From the NCBI RefSeq assembly GCF_004331465.1, contig NZ_SJKB01000007.1, forward strand, positions 62,001 to 126,000: a DNA stretch of 64,000 bases, read 5' to 3'. The DNA comes from Kribbella pittospori (GTDB taxonomy: Bacteria > Actinomycetota > Actinomycetes > Propionibacteriales > Kribbellaceae). The notes below the pieces were generated by a model that worked only from the letters and a program-made list of their open reading frames with translations, had not been told where the DNA came from and did not search any database. The translations under genes and the position numbers were made by a program. Shown here piece by piece: positions 27,274 to 32,538 of this stretch (positions are counted from its first letter, which is position 1; each line of letters opens with the position of its first letter).

Positions 27274-27274
27274 G

Positions 27275-27343
27275 TCCCCCTGCCCGGAGTCGAACCAGGA
27301 ACCCAGCCTTCGGAAAGCCGGGCGAGAATCCGTCACCAGAGGG
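27275..27343 (-). tRNA. Atypical tRNA-like gene, Arg (anticodon CCG)
   Basis: A 69-base cloverleaf. Acceptor CCCTCTG pairs with CAGGGGG, discriminator A; the T arm has TTCGACT; the anticodon loop TTCCGAA gives CCG (Arg, codon CGG). The D stem GTGA/TCGC starts directly after the acceptor, so the usual U8-N9 connector is missing and the gene is short. No encoded CCA. It could be a divergent functional tRNA or a decaying copy. Last member of the minus-strand tRNA array. Confidence 0.55.
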
Positions 27344-27347
27344 ATTC

Positions 27348-27579: not shown

Positions 27580-27641
27580 GGCCGGTCCTCCTCTCTTTCG
27601 TATTGCTGTTGATTGCCCAAGGCACCTTTGCCAGGGGTCCG

Positions 27642-27725
27642 TACAGGAGGCAGGATTCGAACCTGCTGAGCCCGAAGGCAACGGGTTTACAGCCCGCCCC
27701 GCCCCTCCCACGACGGCGCTCCTGT
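27642..27725 (-). tRNA. tRNA-Tyr (anticodon GTA)
   Basis: An 84-base class II tRNA. Acceptor ACAGGAG/CTCCTGT is perfectly paired, discriminator A; anticodon loop CTGTAAA; a long variable arm typical of bacterial tRNA-Tyr; T arm GCAGG-TTCGAAT-CCTGC. Position 8 is C rather than the near-universal U. No encoded CCA. The 5' end abuts the stop codon of the methyltransferase-like gene (27726), so it is probably cut from that mRNA. Confidence 0.85.
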
Positions 27726-28142
27726 TCAACGCTGGGGGAAGTAGCGTCCAACCTTCACCGAGTACCGCCGGTACTCGTTCCCGAACCTCTCCTCGAGCCG
27801 CCGTTCCTCGCGCAGCACCTCCCGGTGCACCACCGCGCCGACCAACGGCATGCTCACCAACACCCACCCGGAGCCGGCGATCACCCCGATCCCCAGCTGC
27901 AGCAGCCCCCATCCGACGTACATCGGATTGCGAGTCCACGCGTACGGCCCGGCGGTCACCAGCCGTTCGGGAGTCGCGAGCTCGTTGGTCCCCGCTGCTT
28001 TGAGTGAGCCCGCGATGACGCCGGCACCTGCCGCAACGATCGGCCACCCGACGTTCCTGGGGAGCGGCAGCGGCAACCGCCACACTTGTTCCAACGCACC
28101 AGCAGCCGCGATCCCGGCCAGACTTGCCTCCGGCACGGGCAC
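27726..28142 (-). CDS. Isoprenylcysteine-carboxyl-methyltransferase-like membrane protein
   Basis: A 138-residue membrane protein with three to four hydrophobic segments. GPYAWTRNPMYVGW near residues 65-78 and the C-terminal REERRLEERFGNEYRRYSVKVGRYFP are the conserved blocks of the ICMT/phospholipid N-methyltransferase family, with SAM bound at the C-terminal Glu/Arg region. Starts 17 bases after the alpha/beta hydrolase and is followed without a gap by tRNA-Tyr. Substrate unknown; lipid or small-molecule methylation is usual. Confidence 0.75.
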   Translation of the reverse strand: MPVPEASLAGIAAAGALEQVWRLPLPLPRNVGWPIVAAGAGVIAGSLKAAGTNELATPERLVTAGPYAWTRNPMYVGWGLLQLGIGVIAGSGWVLVSMPLVGAVVHREVLREERRLEERFGNEYRRYSVKVGRYFPQR

Positions 28143-28159
28143 GTTCCGCAGAATGGCGA

Positions 28160-29002
28160 TCAGTGCGGGGTTCGTGTGAACTCCTCGATCGCCTGTGTGA
28201 AGGCGGCCGGCTGCTCGATGTGCGGGACATGTCCGGACGCATCGATCACCTGCAACGGCCAGCCGAACCGATCCCTCGCCGCCGTGGCAAGCCCCACCGG
28301 TACGAACCGGTCGTGGGCGCCCCAGAGCAGCGTCGTCGGAACGTCGCTGCGCTCGCGGACCTGTTTGGTGCCTGAGGCCACCAGTTGGCGCATCGTCCGC
28401 TTGACGTGCGGCACAAGTGCACGGCTCCGCGCGTAGCCGGTGAACGCGTCGAGCCAGTCCGGGTCTCGCCGCCGTACCCGGTCGAGGTCGTCGAAGGCCC
28501 AGCGCGCGAACCGCTCCATGTTCTCCTCGGAAGGTCGCACCGCGAGCCTGATCGCCACAACCCGGAGCCCGATCGGCATCCGGTACGCCCCCACGCCTGG
28601 CGCACCGTAGAGCACCAACCGCTGCAACAGTTCGCCGTGGTGTACCGCGAATCGCGCGGCAAGGGTCCCCAGCTGGGAATGCGCGATCAGTATTGGTGAC
28701 TGGTCACAGGTCAACCGAAGCAAGCCCGTCAACCACTCGTCGAAGGTCGCCAGATCGAATCGGTCAAACGGATCCGACTCACCCAGCCCTGGTACGTCGG
28801 GAACGACGAGCCGATGCTTCTCCGCGAGCCGGGAGATCACCGGCGCCCAGTAGACACCTCCGCACTCGATTCCCCCATGGAGCAAGACCAAGGGCGGGCC
28901 GTCACCGGCCGTCAGCACCGTCGTACGAACGCCGCCGATCTTGACCTGTCTCTCGTCAACAGCAAGTCCTCGCAGCAACCGCGCCCTGTTGTCCATCGCC
29001 AC
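28160..29002 (-). CDS. Alpha/beta hydrolase
   Basis: A 280-residue alpha/beta-hydrolase-fold protein. The oxyanion segment LLHGGIECGG is near residue 40, the nucleophile elbow reads IAHSQLG near residue 107 (usually GHSxG, here AHSxxG-like), the acid is likely in LWGAHDRFVPV, and the catalytic His is in DASGHVPHIEQP. Cytosolic. The elbow is non-standard but Ser, Asp and His are all present. It lies between tRNA-Glu and the methyltransferase-like gene on the array strand; a link with tRNA biology is not evident. Confidence 0.8.
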   Translation of the reverse strand: MAMDNRARLLRGLAVDERQVKIGGVRTTVLTAGDGPPLVLLHGGIECGGVYWAPVISRLAEKHRLVVPDVPGLGESDPFDRFDLATFDEWLTGLLRLTCDQSPILIAHSQLGTLAARFAVHHGELLQRLVLYGAPGVGAYRMPIGLRVVAIRLAVRPSEENMERFARWAFDDLDRVRRRDPDWLDAFTGYARSRALVPHVKRTMRQLVASGTKQVRERSDVPTTLLWGAHDRFVPVGLATAARDRFGWPLQVIDASGHVPHIEQPAAFTQAIEEFTRTPH

Positions 29003-29093
29003 ATCACCCCGCGACCGACGCTAGACGGCAGGACCCGTCCCCCGCTTCCGAAGAACCACGCAATCCGGCGCCCCGGACCTGCGCAGAACCATG

Positions 29094-29166
29094 TACCCCG
29101 TACCGGATTCGAACCGGTGATCTTCCGGATGAGAACCGGACGTCCTGACCTCTAGACCAACGGGGC
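29094..29166 (-). tRNA. tRNA-Glu (anticodon CTC)
   Basis: A 73-base tRNA. Acceptor GCCCCGT/ACGGGGT (G1 pairs with U72 as wobble); D arm GGTCTAGAGGTCAGGAC as in bacterial tRNA-Glu; anticodon stem TCCGG/CCGGA with loop TTCTCAT; T arm ACCGG-TTCGAAT-CCGGT. Discriminator A, no encoded CCA. Confidence 0.9.
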
Positions 29167-29201
29167 TGGCAGGGGCGGCCGGTCCATCCCGACCGCCCCA
29201 G

Positions 29202-29289
29202 CGGTGAGAGCGAGATTCGAACTCGCGGACGAAGCGGGCTCCGTCGACGGTTTAGCAAACCGCTGCCCCTCCCTACAGGCGACCTCACC
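29202..29289 (-). tRNA. tRNA-Ser (anticodon GCT)
   Basis: An 88-base class II tRNA with a long variable arm. Acceptor GGTGAGG/TCTCACC, discriminator G; anticodon loop TTGCTAA; T arm GCGAG-TTCGAAT-CTCGC. U8 is present. No encoded CCA. A 13-bp hairpin (29300-29334) lies just upstream. Confidence 0.9.
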
Positions 29290-29555: not shown

Positions 29556-30752
29556 CTAGCCCTTCACGCAGATGACCTGCTTGAGGTGGGCTACGACCTC
29601 GACCAGGTCCGACTGGGCCGCGATGACCGACTCGATGTCCTTGTACGCCGCGGGGATCTCGTCGATCACTCCGGCGTCCTTGCGGGACTCGACCCCCGTG
29701 GTCTGCGCGACCAGGTCGTCGACCGTGTACCGGCGCTTCGCCTCGTTGCGGCTCATCCGCCGGCCTGCCCCGTGCGAGGCCGAGTAGAACGACCGCTCCG
29801 ACCCGAGACCGCGGACGACGTACGACCCGGTGCCCATCGACCCCGGGATCAGCCCGAGGTCTCCGCGCCCGGCCCGGATCGCACCCTTGCGGGTGACGAG
29901 CAGGTCGAGCCCGTCGATGCTCTCCTCGGCCACGTAGTTGTGGTGACACGAGATCGGCTGCTCGAACCGCACCTCCTGCTCGAACGACTCCCGCACCGCC
30001 TGCATCACCAGCGCCAGCATCACCGCACGGTTGCCCGACGCGTACCGCTGCGCCCACGTGAGGTCCCGCCGGTACGCCTCCATCTCCGGCGTACCCGACA
30101 GGAACACGGCGAGATCACGGTCAGGCAGGTCCGCGTTGTGCGGCAGGTCCCGCGCGATCCGCATGTGCCGCTCGGCGAGTTCCTTGCCGATGTTGCGGCT
30201 ACCCGAGTGCAGCATCAGCCACACGCGGTCCTCGTCGTCGAGGCACACCTCGATGAAGTGATTGCCGCCACCCAGCGAACCCATCTGCTTCTTCGCCTTC
30301 GACTCCCGGTCCTGCACCCCGTCGTGCAGGCTGGTGAACGACCCCCACAGTCGCTCCCATCCCCGCGGGTCCAGCCCGAGCCGACGGATGCTCACCGGGT
30401 CCTCATGCGCCCGGAACCCAACCGGTACGGCGGCCTCGATCCGCGAACGGATCGCCGACAGGTCATCCGGCAGGTCCGCGGCCGTCAGCGAGGTCAGGAC
30501 GCCTTCCATCCCGCACCCGATGTCGACCCCGACCGCGGCCGGCGACACCGCCTGGTACATCGCGATCACCGACCCGACGGTCGCGCCCTTGCCGAGGTGC
30601 ACATCCGGCATCACCCGGACGCCGTACACCCACGGCAGGGCCGCGATGTTCCGCAGCTGCTGCAGCGCCTGCGCACCCACTTCGTGCTCCTGCGCCCACA
30701 TGAGCGTGGAGCTCTTGGCCCCGCTCAGCTCCACCGGAAACTCCACGTTCAT
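29556..30752 (-). CDS. rtcB: RNA-splicing ligase RtcB
   Basis: A 398-residue GTP/Mn-dependent ligase that joins 2',3'-cyclic-phosphate (or 3'-phosphate) and 5'-OH RNA ends, the ends left by many tRNA-cutting toxins. Visible motifs: MPDVHLGKGATVGSV, VGVDIGCGM (metal Cys), SLGGGNHFIEV, HSGSRNIG, HHNYV, the GTP-site GSMGTGSYVVRG, and the guanylated His in SASHGAGRRMSR. ATG at 30752 follows GAGGAGG; the longer reading would enter tRNA-Ser. No RtcA or archease nearby. Embedded in the tRNA array, its likely role is repair of cleaved tRNAs. Confidence 0.95.
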   Translation of the reverse strand: MNVEFPVELSGAKSSTLMWAQEHEVGAQALQQLRNIAALPWVYGVRVMPDVHLGKGATVGSVIAMYQAVSPAAVGVDIGCGMEGVLTSLTAADLPDDLSAIRSRIEAAVPVGFRAHEDPVSIRRLGLDPRGWERLWGSFTSLHDGVQDRESKAKKQMGSLGGGNHFIEVCLDDEDRVWLMLHSGSRNIGKELAERHMRIARDLPHNADLPDRDLAVFLSGTPEMEAYRRDLTWAQRYASGNRAVMLALVMQAVRESFEQEVRFEQPISCHHNYVAEESIDGLDLLVTRKGAIRAGRGDLGLIPGSMGTGSYVVRGLGSERSFYSASHGAGRRMSRNEAKRRYTVDDLVAQTTGVESRKDAGVIDEIPAAYKDIESVIAAQSDLVEVVAHLKQVICVKG

Positions 30753-30780
30753 CTCCTCACCCTCCTCGTTCGTGTGCATG

Positions 30781-30872
30781 CGGTGGAAGTGGGACTCGAA
30801 CCCACACATCCGGTGAAGGATCGACCGTTTTCGAGACGGTTGCCGGTAGGCCAACGCTCGGCTTATTCCACC
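30781..30872 (-). tRNA. tRNA-Ser (anticodon CGA)
   Basis: A 92-base class II tRNA. Acceptor GGTGGAA/TTCCACC perfectly paired, discriminator G; anticodon stem ACCGT/ACGGT with loop CTCGAAA; long variable arm; T arm GTGGG-TTCGAGT-CCCAC. No encoded CCA. It ends 28 bases before the rtcB start. Confidence 0.9.
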
Positions 30873-30878
30873 TGAGAG

Positions 30879-30951
30879 CTGCCAGGGCAGGGCTCGAACC
30901 TGCGGGACCTCGGGTCAGAACCGAGGGTGGGTCACCGTCGCCCACCTGGCA
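30879..30951 (-). tRNA. tRNA-Gln (anticodon CTG)
   Basis: A 73-base tRNA. Acceptor TGCCAGG/CCTGGCA with U1-A72, as is typical of tRNA-Gln; discriminator G; anticodon stem CTCGG/CCGAG with loop TTCTGAC; T arm GCAGG-TTCGAGC-CCTGC. No encoded CCA. Six bases separate it from tRNA-Ser(CGA). Confidence 0.9.
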
Positions 30952-30987: not shown

Positions 30988-31434
30988 TCAGAGCGCCAAC
31001 TCGGCACGGGAAGGGATCCACGGCTGCCACAACAGCGGCATACCGGCCTCTTCGGGCGTGCGTGAGCCCTTCTTCTCGTTGCAGGACGAGTGTGCGGCGA
31101 CAGCGTTCAGCCACTCGCCGCGTCCACCACGCGACCGCGGAACCACGTGGTCCATGGTCGTGGCACCGGGCTTACCGCAGTACGCGCAGGTGTACTTGTC
31201 CCGCTTCAGTACGCCGGCCCGCGTGTACTGCAGCCGGCCGGACGCGTACCGCCACTTCGTCACGACGTACCGGACGAGACGCAGTACCCGGGGGAGGGGG
31301 AATGGTCCGATGCTCGCGCCGTCATGCGCTTCCTCGACGACGGCGACCTCCCGGACGAGCATCCGGATGGCGTGCTGGACCGACACGACATGCAGTTGCT
31401 CGTACGAGGCGTTGAGCACGATCACACCGCTCAT
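30988..31434 (-). CDS. HNH endonuclease
   Basis: A 148-residue HNH-family nuclease. ATG at 31434 has GGAGGAGG upstream. The core reads CAYCGKPGATTMDHVVPRSRGG, then N at WLNAVAAHSSCNEKKG, giving the Cys pairs for structural zinc, the DH pair, Asn and a final Cys-x-x-Asn. The N-terminal part (VIVLNASYEQLHVVSVQHAIRMLVREVA) matches a widely found actinobacterial HNH family. Substrate, DNA or RNA, is unknown. It sits inside the tRNA array between tRNA-Gln and the UAG-anticodon tRNA. Confidence 0.9.
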   Translation of the reverse strand: MSGVIVLNASYEQLHVVSVQHAIRMLVREVAVVEEAHDGASIGPFPLPRVLRLVRYVVTKWRYASGRLQYTRAGVLKRDKYTCAYCGKPGATTMDHVVPRSRGGRGEWLNAVAAHSSCNEKKGSRTPEEAGMPLLWQPWIPSRAELAL

Positions 31435-31504: not shown

Positions 31505-31581
31505 TGGTGCGGCCCCAGGGACTCGAACCCTGAACCTCCTGGTCCTAAGCCAGGCGCCTCTCCCAATTGGGCCAGAGCCGC
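31505..31581 (-). tRNA. Class I tRNA with UAG anticodon (reads Leu codon CUA)
   Basis: A 74-base cloverleaf plus encoded CCA (31505-31507). Acceptor GCGGCTC/GGGCCGC, discriminator A; U8; D arm GGCCCAATTGGGAGAGGC; anticodon stem CCTGG/CCAGG with loop CTTAGGA; T arm CAGGG-TTCGAGT-CCCTG. The variable loop is only five bases (AGGTT). Bacterial tRNA-Leu has a long variable arm, so a short-armed tRNA with a Leu anticodon is odd and its amino acid is uncertain. Confidence 0.85.
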
Positions 31582-31652
31582 AGGTACTGCGCTTTGTCAC
31601 GTACGGCGACCGGTCCGGGGGCAACTGCGCCCGGCTGACCGTCGTACCTGAG

Positions 31653-31726
31653 GGTGTCCGGCGGGGCTCGAACCCGCTTCCTCCGGGTCCACATCCCGGC
31701 GCCTCGCCCGCTTCAGCCTCGGACAC
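31653..31726 (-). tRNA. tRNA-His (anticodon GTG)
   Basis: A 74-base tRNA. Acceptor GTGTCCG/CGGACAC perfectly paired, discriminator C as expected for His; anticodon stem CCGGG/CCCGG with loop ATGTGGA; T arm GCGGG-TTCGAGC-CCCGC. The base before position 1 is T, so the usual encoded G-1 is absent. No encoded CCA. Confidence 0.85.
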
Positions 31727-31728
31727 AG

Positions 31729-31802
31729 CACGCCCGGCAGGACTTGAACCTGCACGCTCCTGCTTCGTAGGCAGGTGCTCTCTCCGGTTGAGCCACGGGC
31801 GC
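31729..31802 (-). tRNA. tRNA-Arg (anticodon ACG)
   Basis: A 74-base tRNA. Acceptor GCGCCCG/CGGGCGT (G1-U72 wobble), discriminator G; D arm GGCTCAACCGGAGAGAGC; anticodon stem CCTGC/GCAGG with loop CTACGAA; T arm GCAGG-TTCAAGT-CCTGC. A34 would become inosine to read CGU, CGC and CGA. No encoded CCA. Two bases from tRNA-His. Confidence 0.9.
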
Positions 31803-31894: not shown

Positions 31895-31970
31895 TGGTCC
31901 AGCTGGAGGGACTCGAACCCCCGTCATCCTCATCCCAAATGAGGTGGCCTAGCCACTGGCCCACAGCTGG
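31895..31970 (-). tRNA. tRNA-Pro (anticodon TGG)
   Basis: A 73-base tRNA plus encoded CCA (31895-31897). Acceptor CCAGCTG/CAGCTGG, discriminator A; anticodon stem CCTCA/TGAGG with loop TTTGGGA; T arm GGGGG-TTCGAGT-CCCTC. A hairpin-rich spacer (31803-31894, GGCGCCCGC/GCGGGCGCC) separates it from tRNA-Arg. Confidence 0.9.
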
Positions 31971-32172
31971 CTGACGTCCCCGGGGCGTTCCGGCCCCAGG
32001 GACGGGTGCCCGAGCCCACCCGGCTCGTGCGGCCGGCAGTCTCGGGCGTCTTCCCCGGCGCACGGGCGGCGCCGCAGGGAAGGTCTCCCGGGCCGTCGGT
32101 GACCCGGGAGAAAATGCGATGAATGTCCAGTTGTCAATTGTTCGAGCCGATATCCGTGAATACCGGAAAAAG

Positions 32173-32241
32173 CATCGGTGGAAGGAGTCGAACCCTCGTG
32201 ACGCGGGTTTGGAATCCGGTCCGCAACCATTGCGCACCGAC
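32173..32241 (-). tRNA. Atypical tRNA-Trp (anticodon CCA)
   Basis: A 69-base cloverleaf. Acceptor GTCGGTG/CACCGAT (G1-U72), discriminator G; anticodon loop TTCCAAA; T arm GAGGG-TTCGACT-CCTTC. The D arm CGCAA-TGG-TTGCG begins right after the acceptor, without U8-N9, and the anticodon stem has A-C and C-C mismatches at its ends. No encoded CCA. It is the first tRNA after the terminator, 16 bases downstream of the U-tract. Confidence 0.6.
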
Positions 32242-32257: not shown

Positions 32258-32303
32258 AAAAGAAAAGAGCCGCCTGCTGCCGGTGGCCCGGCTCAGACGG
32301 CTC
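32258..32303 (-). terminator. Intrinsic terminator with U-tract before the tRNA array (attenuator)
   Basis: On the minus-strand transcript GAGCCG (32303-32298) is repeated as GAGCCG (32294-32289). Either copy can pair with CGGCTC (32272-32267), which is followed by UUUUCUUUU (32266-32258). Two competing donors for one terminator arm, downstream of a leader ORF, are what an attenuator needs. The first tRNA starts 16 bases later, so this terminator would silence the array unless it is bypassed. Confidence 0.75.
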
Positions 32304-32309
32304 CTGGGA

Positions 32310-32329
32310 TGATCTCCCGCTGGAGATCA
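32310..32329 (-). promoter_or_regulatory. 8-bp hairpin covering the leader stop codon
   Basis: TGATCTCC (32310-32317) and GGAGATCA (32322-32329) pair perfectly around a 4-base loop. The UGA stop of the leader ORF is the first three bases of the stem on the RNA, so a terminating ribosome would keep this hairpin open. Confidence 0.7.
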
Positions 32330-32473
32330 CACAGGTGGGCCGCCCGGACTCGGGCTCAGTTCGGTCCCGCTGAGCTGGTGGTAGAAGGCATCGATGTGCA
32401 CTGATTGCAGGCACGCCGACAAAGCCATGGCATCCAACCGCCAGGCTTTCCTCGGGTTCCACTCTCGGTACAC
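32327..32473 (-). CDS. 48-residue leader peptide of the tRNA/RtcB array
   Basis: GTG at 32473 follows AGGAG at 32483-32479 with five-base spacing. The peptide begins MYREWNPRKAW and ends GGPPV. It has two Trp codons (residues 5 and 11). Each of the ten array tRNAs with conventional identities has at least one matching codon here (UAC, CGA, GAG, UGG, CCG/CCA, CGG, UCG, CAC, CAG, AGC); several of these codons are common in GC-rich genes. It is followed by a stop-codon hairpin and a U-tailed terminator. It is probably a regulatory leader, though the sequence looks protein-like enough to act itself. Confidence 0.65.
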   Translation of the reverse strand: MYREWNPRKAWRLDAMALSACLQSVHIDAFYHQLSGTELSPSPGGPPV

Positions 32474-32508
32474 GATCACTCCTAGGTCTGTAGTTCCTTG
32501 CGGGGATT

Positions 32509-32538
32509 AGTCTGACCCATCCCTCACAACCACGTCAA
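32509..32538 (-). promoter_or_regulatory. Promoter of leader/tRNA array
   Basis: On the minus strand TTGACG (32538-32533) is a good -35, and CAGACT (32514-32509) is an 18-bp-spaced weak -10 with A2 and T6. AAAT lies three bases before the -35; an AT-rich block at that place is the hallmark of WhiB7-dependent promoters. The start site would be near 32502, giving about 30 bases before the leader GTG. Confidence 0.5.

Follow-up and report, generated by a model that had tools for sequence, protein, structure and literature searches.

An attenuator-like leader conserved upstream of a backup tRNA and RNA-repair operon in Kribbella

Introduction

When does a bacterium that carries a spare set of tRNA genes switch them on? 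Bacterial tRNA arrays are known, and within the literature searched it has been worked out only for Anabaena when and why such an array is turned on. There, translation inhibitors induce the trn operon, which is under the control of the repressor TrcR, as are rtcB and an HNH gene (PMC10272220). Here, we analysed a stretch of 64,000 nucleotides from the soil bacterium Kribbella pittospori (contig NZ_SJKB01000007.1, positions 62,001 to 126,000), which we call the window and in whose coordinates all positions are given. It contains a tRNA array with genes for an HNH endonuclease-like protein and the RNA ligase RtcB. An initial annotation of the sequence had drawn attention to a short open reading frame (ORF), a stop-codon hairpin and a terminator directly upstream of this array.

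We describe the anatomy of this leader, its conservation, predicted folds that exclude each other and a parallel architecture in Micromonospora. The attenuator-like unit before the backup tRNA and RNA-repair operon is real and conserved, and a role as attenuator is well supported by sequence comparison. The proposal can be tested base by base and ties translation of the leader to tRNA replacement and repair. If it is true, the loss of functional tRNAs would turn on the genes that replace them, and cells might in this way notice toxins or defence nucleases that cleave tRNAs, with no need for a dedicated receptor.

Results

The array lies on the minus strand and comprises, in the order of transcription, the following features:

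32172 to 32241, minus strand: array tRNA-Trp(CCA), 23.5 bits with the Rfam tRNA model (below gathering) and 81 bits with the family profile; 43 of 74 positions identical to the housekeeping copy
32121 to 32166, minus strand: second conserved element, a hairpin plus GAACAATTGACAACTGGACATTC between tRNA-Trp and tRNA-Pro, present in nearly all 37 Kribbella arrays
31895 to 31970, minus strand: array tRNA-Pro(UGG)
31728 to 31802, minus strand: array tRNA-Arg(ACG), in 37 of 37 arrays
31652 to 31726, minus strand: array tRNA-His(GUG)
31505 to 31581, minus strand: array tRNA-Leu(UAG)
30988 to 31434, minus strand: HNH endonuclease-like gene (Pfam HNH, 6.8e-12)
30878 to 30951, minus strand: array tRNA-Gln(CUG), in 37 of 37 arrays
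30780 to 30872, minus strand: array tRNA-Ser(CGA)
29556 to 30752, minus strand: RtcB RNA ligase (Pfam RtcB, 1.1e-122)
29201 to 29289, minus strand: array tRNA-Ser(GCU)
29093 to 29166, minus strand: array tRNA-Glu(CUC)
27641 to 27725, minus strand: array tRNA-Tyr(GUA)
27274 to 27345, minus strand: tRNA-Arg(CCG), probably the last array tRNA, since relatives also have it at the end of their arrays; a further copy of the C44 gene

Every array isoacceptor has a housekeeping copy elsewhere in the genome, to which the array copy is only 54–74% identical. Hence, the array tRNAs appear to be diverged spares, and the locus holds second isoacceptor copies like a redundant stress tRNA operon of the Anabaena trn type. 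Genes for an alpha/beta hydrolase and a methyltransferase of the PEMT/ICMT type lie inside the array at 27726–29002, between tRNA-Glu and tRNA-Tyr. The second conserved element consists of a hairpin followed by GAANAATTGACAACTGGAYAT, and its stem has undergone compensatory changes in most of the 37 arrays. Behind the leader, both Rhizocola (TTGAGAATTCCACAGTGGACAG) and Micromonospora (TTCTCAACTCCACAGTGGACGG) have blocks similar to the rrn leader TTGAGAACTCAACAGCGTG; this sequence was taken from two Kribbella relatives, since a 16S search of the assembly itself gave no hit. These blocks and the Kribbella element, whose similarity is weak, are possibly rrn-like antitermination sites.

Upstream of the array, a GTG-started ORF, a stop-codon hairpin and a U-tailed terminator follow one another on the minus strand:

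32533 to 32538, minus strand: −35-like TTGACG of the candidate leader promoter, 18 nt 5' of the −10-like hexamer; TTGAC invariant in 33 aligned leaders
32509 to 32514, minus strand: −10-like CAGACT, its column block kept as (G/C)A(G/A/C)ACT in the alignment; putative promoter element
32479 to 32483, minus strand: Shine-Dalgarno sequence AGGAG just 5' of the start codon, nearly invariant among leaders
32327 to 32473, minus strand: leader ORF of 48 codons plus stop, from GTG at 32473 to TGA at 32327 (MYREWNPRKAWRLDAMALSACLQSVHIDAFYHQLSGTELSPSPGGPPV), with homologues in 37 of 38 Kribbella genomes
32310 to 32329, minus strand: stop-codon hairpin UGAUCUCC/GGGAGAUCA, a predicted fold that forms the inner part of the antiterminator
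32258 to 32303, minus strand: intrinsic terminator, a hairpin rich in G+C followed by a U tract; its dG ranges across 33 species from about −25 to −34 kcal/mol

The 48-codon ORF with its good ribosome-binding site, as claimed in the initial annotation, is borne out by this anatomy, and in one homologue (L137) an ATG replaces the GTG at exactly the same start position. The hairpin that encloses the stop codon likewise folds as described. The terminator consists of GAGCCGUCUG..CAGGCGGCUC plus UCUUUUCUUUU and ends at 32258, 16 nt before tRNA-Trp (32241), in agreement with its earlier placement. Transcription would start about 30 nt upstream of the 48-codon ORF. Strict consensus scans listed neither the leader promoter nor the leader terminator; both rest on conservation and folding.

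The idea would have failed if homologous arrays lacked both ORF and terminator, and this is not what we found. Searched with the peptide, 33 of 38 Kribbella genomes proved to carry the leader; it lies directly 5' of the homologous array in the 30 loci that were read first and also in the other three. Four divergent leaders were added by profile search and locus reading, so that 37 of 38 Kribbella genomes carry ORF and terminator before a homologous array. Shine-Dalgarno sequence, start codon and frame of this translatable ORF just 5' of the terminator are kept in all 37 species, and a hairpin with U tract lies between ORF and first structural gene in all aligned species. Because it is conserved across the genus, the leader unit goes beyond a chance arrangement. 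No homologue was found in 256 other genomes of the order, where the best match (E = 1.7e-4) lies inside a 286-aa frame, or in a class-wide sample of 395 genomes. Within Kribbella, the leader occurs in eight lengths (42, 43, 44, 47, 48, 49, 52 and 59 codons), in each case with the reading frame uninterrupted between start and stop. With medians of 0.57 for dN and 0.61 for dS, dN/dS is about 0.94 and reveals no constraint at the protein level, on which ground a functional micropeptide was rejected. The leader thus looks translated while the peptide itself is not conserved, as expected of an attenuator leader. In the longest homologue (L201, genome G017, positions 2020–2200), the codons CTG CGA TCC (Leu-Arg-Ser) are repeated in tandem and stretch the ORF to 59 codons.

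But how could translation of such a leader act on the terminator? The following elements of the predicted antiterminator connect the end of the ORF to the terminator:

32339 to 32346, minus strand: 5' arm of the outer helix (CGGGCGGC, codons 43–45), pairing with 32294–32301 in the RNAalifold consensus
32332 to 32335, minus strand: 5' side of the middle helix (CCUG), pairing with CAGG at 32303–32306
32294 to 32304, minus strand: shared arm GGAGCCGUCUG, which is both 3' arm of the antiterminator and 5' arm of the terminator (folding and RNAalifold)

The last leader codons, GGC GGY CCR CCU, fold over the stop-codon hairpin onto the 5' arm of the terminator: GGCGGY of the leader pairs with RCCGYC of this arm and CCUG with CAGG, with the stop-codon hairpin enclosed. 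The RNAalifold consensus of 33 aligned 3' ends is this antiterminator and not the terminator, and its outer helix is part of the minimum free energy structure of the truncated leader transcript in 37 of 37 species. Both structures have similar predicted energies (−22 to −33 kcal/mol for the antiterminator, −25 to −34 kcal/mol for the terminator). In the full-length RNA, the terminator state is more stable by 0–9 kcal/mol; a switch between the two must therefore be kinetic and decided during RNA synthesis.

The initial annotation had placed the competition elsewhere, in two GAGCCG arms. Both are present, but the second copy is not conserved, so we rejected them as the switch; the conserved competitor is the codon stretch for Gly-Gly-Pro-Pro at the end of the leader. 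Third bases in this stretch are constrained only where they pair: C is found in codon −5 in 37 of 37 leaders, C or U in codon −4 in 35 of 37 (the partner being G), and the third base of codon −3, in the unpaired loop, is free. Codon −2 is CCU in 33 of 37 leaders, compared with 6% of Pro codons in the background. Covariation by columns is weak, with one double change (C-G to U-A in the middle helix of homologue L123) and a score no better than that of shuffles, because the arms barely vary and most pairs never change. Arms form better pairs with their own partner than with a swapped one (13 of 20,000 permutations; 137 of 20,000 with 13 divergent representatives). Fold energies compared with random codon strings gave a mean z of about −2.3 in Kribbella and in Micromonospora, and P = 0.005 for the window. 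The number of sequestered arm bases was discarded as proof of an antiterminator, as GC-rich random leaders often sequester the terminator arm in part and random GC-rich codons reach the observed count in 3–39% of the Kribbella tests; we relied on energy and third-base conservation instead. Assignment of the leader to a known RNA family was rejected: within the window, there was no match to the Rfam T-box covariance model, and neither Trp_leader nor another curated Rfam leader appeared at gathering score or at E ≤ 5.

To model the ribosome, the RNA was masked up to 12 nt past the start of the A-site codon and the transcript was folded once the 5' arm of the terminator had emerged. With the ribosome at codons 2–41, the leader codons hold the terminator arm, and with the ribosome at codon 44 through the stop codon, the arm is free. 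The stalled and unstalled states, for which folding had been recommended, are hence predicted to be mutually exclusive, with the position of the ribosome deciding between them. A leader free of ribosomes folds into the antiterminator as well, so that failed initiation should likewise open the array.

Two codons of the leader stand out:

32441 to 32443, minus strand: Trp codon 11 (UGG), in 34 of 37 leaders; the three leaders that lack it also lack array tRNA-Trp
32405 to 32407, minus strand: codon 23, CAA in the window strain and CGA in nearly all relatives; CGA enriched 4.7-fold in leaders compared with the background

Of the two Trp codons reported earlier, at positions 5 and 11, both exist and only codon 11 is conserved. 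Also kept across the Kribbella leaders are the CGA at about codon 23, the UGC CUG preceding it and the last codons; an alignment of homologues had been proposed as a test for such conservation of codons and pairing. In the window strain, the CGA at about codon 23 has mutated to CAA, and a CGA is present at codon 3. For UGC, a conserved Cys codon, most species have no cognate tRNA in the array. As had been noticed, the window leader holds a codon for each array tRNA (11 of 11 with the outlying Arg-CCG gene counted), and it encodes all 20 amino acids; the codons that match array tRNAs all fall within the sensing part. This overlap had been suspected to be partly chance; among random 47-codon segments of neighbouring genes, 2.0% match all 11 tRNAs and 0.16% contain all 20 amino acids. 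Of the 37 species, 28 have a complete match, and 11 gaps are spread over the other nine; combined, these figures lend modest support to a fit between leader codons and the tRNAs that the array supplies. Association between a codon and its array tRNA is significant for Trp only (naive P = 0.02). Three Kribbella species without Trp codons in the leader have no array tRNA-Trp, and in eight species the array tRNA-Trp has been lost and the Trp codon retained.

Are such leaders confined to Kribbella? Among 75 other rtcB loci, the nine that lie next to array tRNAs (seven Micromonospora, Rhizocola and Asanoa) all have an upstream ribosome-binding site, an ORF of 40–44 codons and a strong terminator, compared with about 3 of the 66 loci without tRNAs; these counts are uncorrected for phylogeny and all nine loci belong to the Micromonosporaceae. 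The Micromonospora leader, MSQ..RP.PRGG...GW(R/W)RD, is unrelated in sequence to that of Kribbella and was found by profile search in 68 of 121 Micromonospora genomes, seven of which (G673, G677, G680, G703, G722, G726 and G762) have two matches each. Here too, the end of the ORF (last codons GGGUGGC) is complementary to the 5' arm of the terminator (GCCGCCC), and the two pair with a stop-codon hairpin between them, in the same topology as in Kribbella. These leaders carry 0–4 Trp codons, with more where tRNA-Trp follows (naive P = 0.0008, uncorrected for phylogeny). The Asanoa leader has three Cys codons 5' of a tRNA with Cys anticodon (P = 0.002). At the single loci of Rhizocola, Asanoa and Arthrobacter, the antiterminator did not rise above random codon strings.

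Some of these loci are peculiar in other respects. The array tRNA of Asanoa (L088, 5872–5957) combines the Cys anticodon GCA with a long variable arm like that of selenocysteine tRNA (Rfam tRNA-Sec, 52 bits). A Trp-like tRNA with an enlarged anticodon loop of 8 nt lies directly 3' of a leader terminator in Micromonospora (L087, 5573–5650). In Arthrobacter (L082, 5560–5770), a 47-codon ORF and a terminator precede an rtcB without array tRNAs; the locus was rejected as tRNA-linked since the one tRNA gene there, for Thr, is distant and lies 5' of the leader, and leaders of this kind may control rtcB alone.

Discussion

We consider it probable that the Kribbella leader is a ribosome-mediated transcription attenuator of the backup tRNA operon. 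A ribosome that reads to the stop codon would cover the last codons and free the arm GGAGCCGUCUG, whereupon the terminator (32303–32258) would form and the array stay off. If a needed tRNA is missing, cleaved or uncharged, the ribosome would stall at or before about codon 41; the GGC GGY CCR CCU codons, the stop-codon hairpin and the shared arm could then form one long antiterminator hairpin, and the polymerase would continue through the divergent tRNAs and the genes for HNH and RtcB. With a codon for each array tRNA, the ORF could work as an OR gate that responds to many different tRNAs, and its conserved sensing sites would be Trp codon 11 and the CGA at about codon 23. We infer that termination would occur in vivo, with stalling as the switch and tRNA loss as the signal. 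The logic put forward at the outset, in which a stalled ribosome blocks the terminator before replacement tRNAs and RtcB, thus gains support from the conserved antiterminator, from conservation throughout the genus and from the parallel system in Micromonospora; the structure with two GAGCCG arms was given up.

Could the codons be incidental? A general translation-stress attenuator, which any ribosome-slowing antibiotic or loss of translation would open in the manner of multi-drug sensory upstream ORFs, is a less likely reading, yet the strongest of the rivals. It would account for the antiterminator on a ribosome-free leader and for the modest codon coverage (P = 0.02), and it has precedents in the induction of the Anabaena trn operon by ribosome-targeting antibiotics (PMC10272220) and in an upstream ORF that senses five antibiotic classes (PMC12121999). 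However, Trp codon 11 and a near-invariant CGA are kept in a peptide without constraint at the protein level, and Trp codons track tRNA-Trp in one Kribbella clade and, by count, in Micromonospora (on the naive P given above). This favours sensing of specific tRNA loss over general translation stress and does not prove it.

Control by tryptophan, in the manner of a trp leader acting mainly on tRNA-Trp as the first array gene, seems improbable to us. Such a device would explain why codon 11 is conserved, why the first tRNA is Trp in Kribbella and Rhizocola and why Micromonospora leaders have more Trp codons where tRNA-Trp is present, but leader and terminator persist in the eight species that lost tRNA-Trp, the attenuator is kept in the three species without Trp codons, and the Cys-rich Asanoa leader precedes a tRNA of the Cys type. 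Slightly more improbable still is a small functional protein with its own terminator and an array transcribed from another promoter, e.g. in the conserved element after tRNA-Trp: a TTGACA-like block is kept there and a few peptide residues are retained, but dN/dS is about 0.94 over lengths of 42–59 residues, third-base constraint follows RNA pairing, no −10 is conserved near the TTGACA, whose first T is absent in several species, and the distance from the terminator to tRNA-Trp is only 16 nt.

Returning to tRNA-specific attenuation, which tRNA would be under attack? The codon CGA is read by tRNA-Arg(ICG). Colicin D cleaves tRNA-Arg and induces rtcBA in Escherichia coli (PMC7790460). The conserved CGA codon and the invariant array tRNA-Arg(ACG) would fit a colicin D-like threat. 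In a wider sense, one may propose an actinobacterial class of tRNA-health attenuators, in which one leader ORF serves as OR gate: when any one of many tRNAs is depleted, diverged replacement tRNAs and RtcB are turned on. The same stop-codon-enclosing antiterminator would then have arisen from unrelated sequences in two or more families; we regard this proposal as about equally likely to be right or wrong.

The initial annotation knew of no described attenuator of a tRNA array, and none was found in the literature searched, whose coverage excludes most subscription journals. Related systems share single features with the Kribbella locus. The Anabaena trn operon is likewise a redundant tRNA operon, and there rtcB and an HNH gene are co-regulated with it and translational stress induces it, as would be the case for the Kribbella array; its control differs in that a DNA-binding repressor acts at the promoter, a leader attenuator has not been described and rtcB lies at another locus (PMC10272220). 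The RtcR-controlled rtcBA operon is comparable in that an RNA-repair ligase is turned on by tRNA damage, which is a proposal in Kribbella, but there a transcriptional activator with CARF domain senses tRNA fragments, whereas our proposal involves leader translation and co-expressed spare tRNAs (PMC7790460). The sensory upstream ORF toiL of topAI-yjhQ is also a single short ORF in which stalls at several different positions elicit a response; it belongs to E. coli, acts by occluding a ribosome-binding site and through Rho, and does not control tRNAs (PMC12121999). Phage tRNAs that evade anticodon nucleases are diverged extra tRNAs able to replace cleaved host tRNAs, yet these are phage genes, while the Kribbella leader attenuator resides on a bacterial chromosome (PMC10264068). 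Closest in design are the attenuators of amino-acid operons (trp, his, leu and ilv leaders; actinobacterial cases in PMC1262725), which also combine a ribosome-binding site, a short ORF and an antiterminator competing with an intrinsic terminator before the controlled genes, and in which, as proposed here, a stall would give readthrough. In contrast to these, the Kribbella leader precedes tRNA genes and an RNA ligase instead of biosynthesis genes, it contains codons for many different tRNAs rather than a row of codons for a single one, and its antiterminator is built with the last leader codons and has the stop codon inside, with no separate protector hairpin identified. The Kribbella leader would thus represent a new variant: a known type of mechanism, ribosome-mediated attenuation, applied to a target, a tRNA array with RtcB, that is new to the literature searched.
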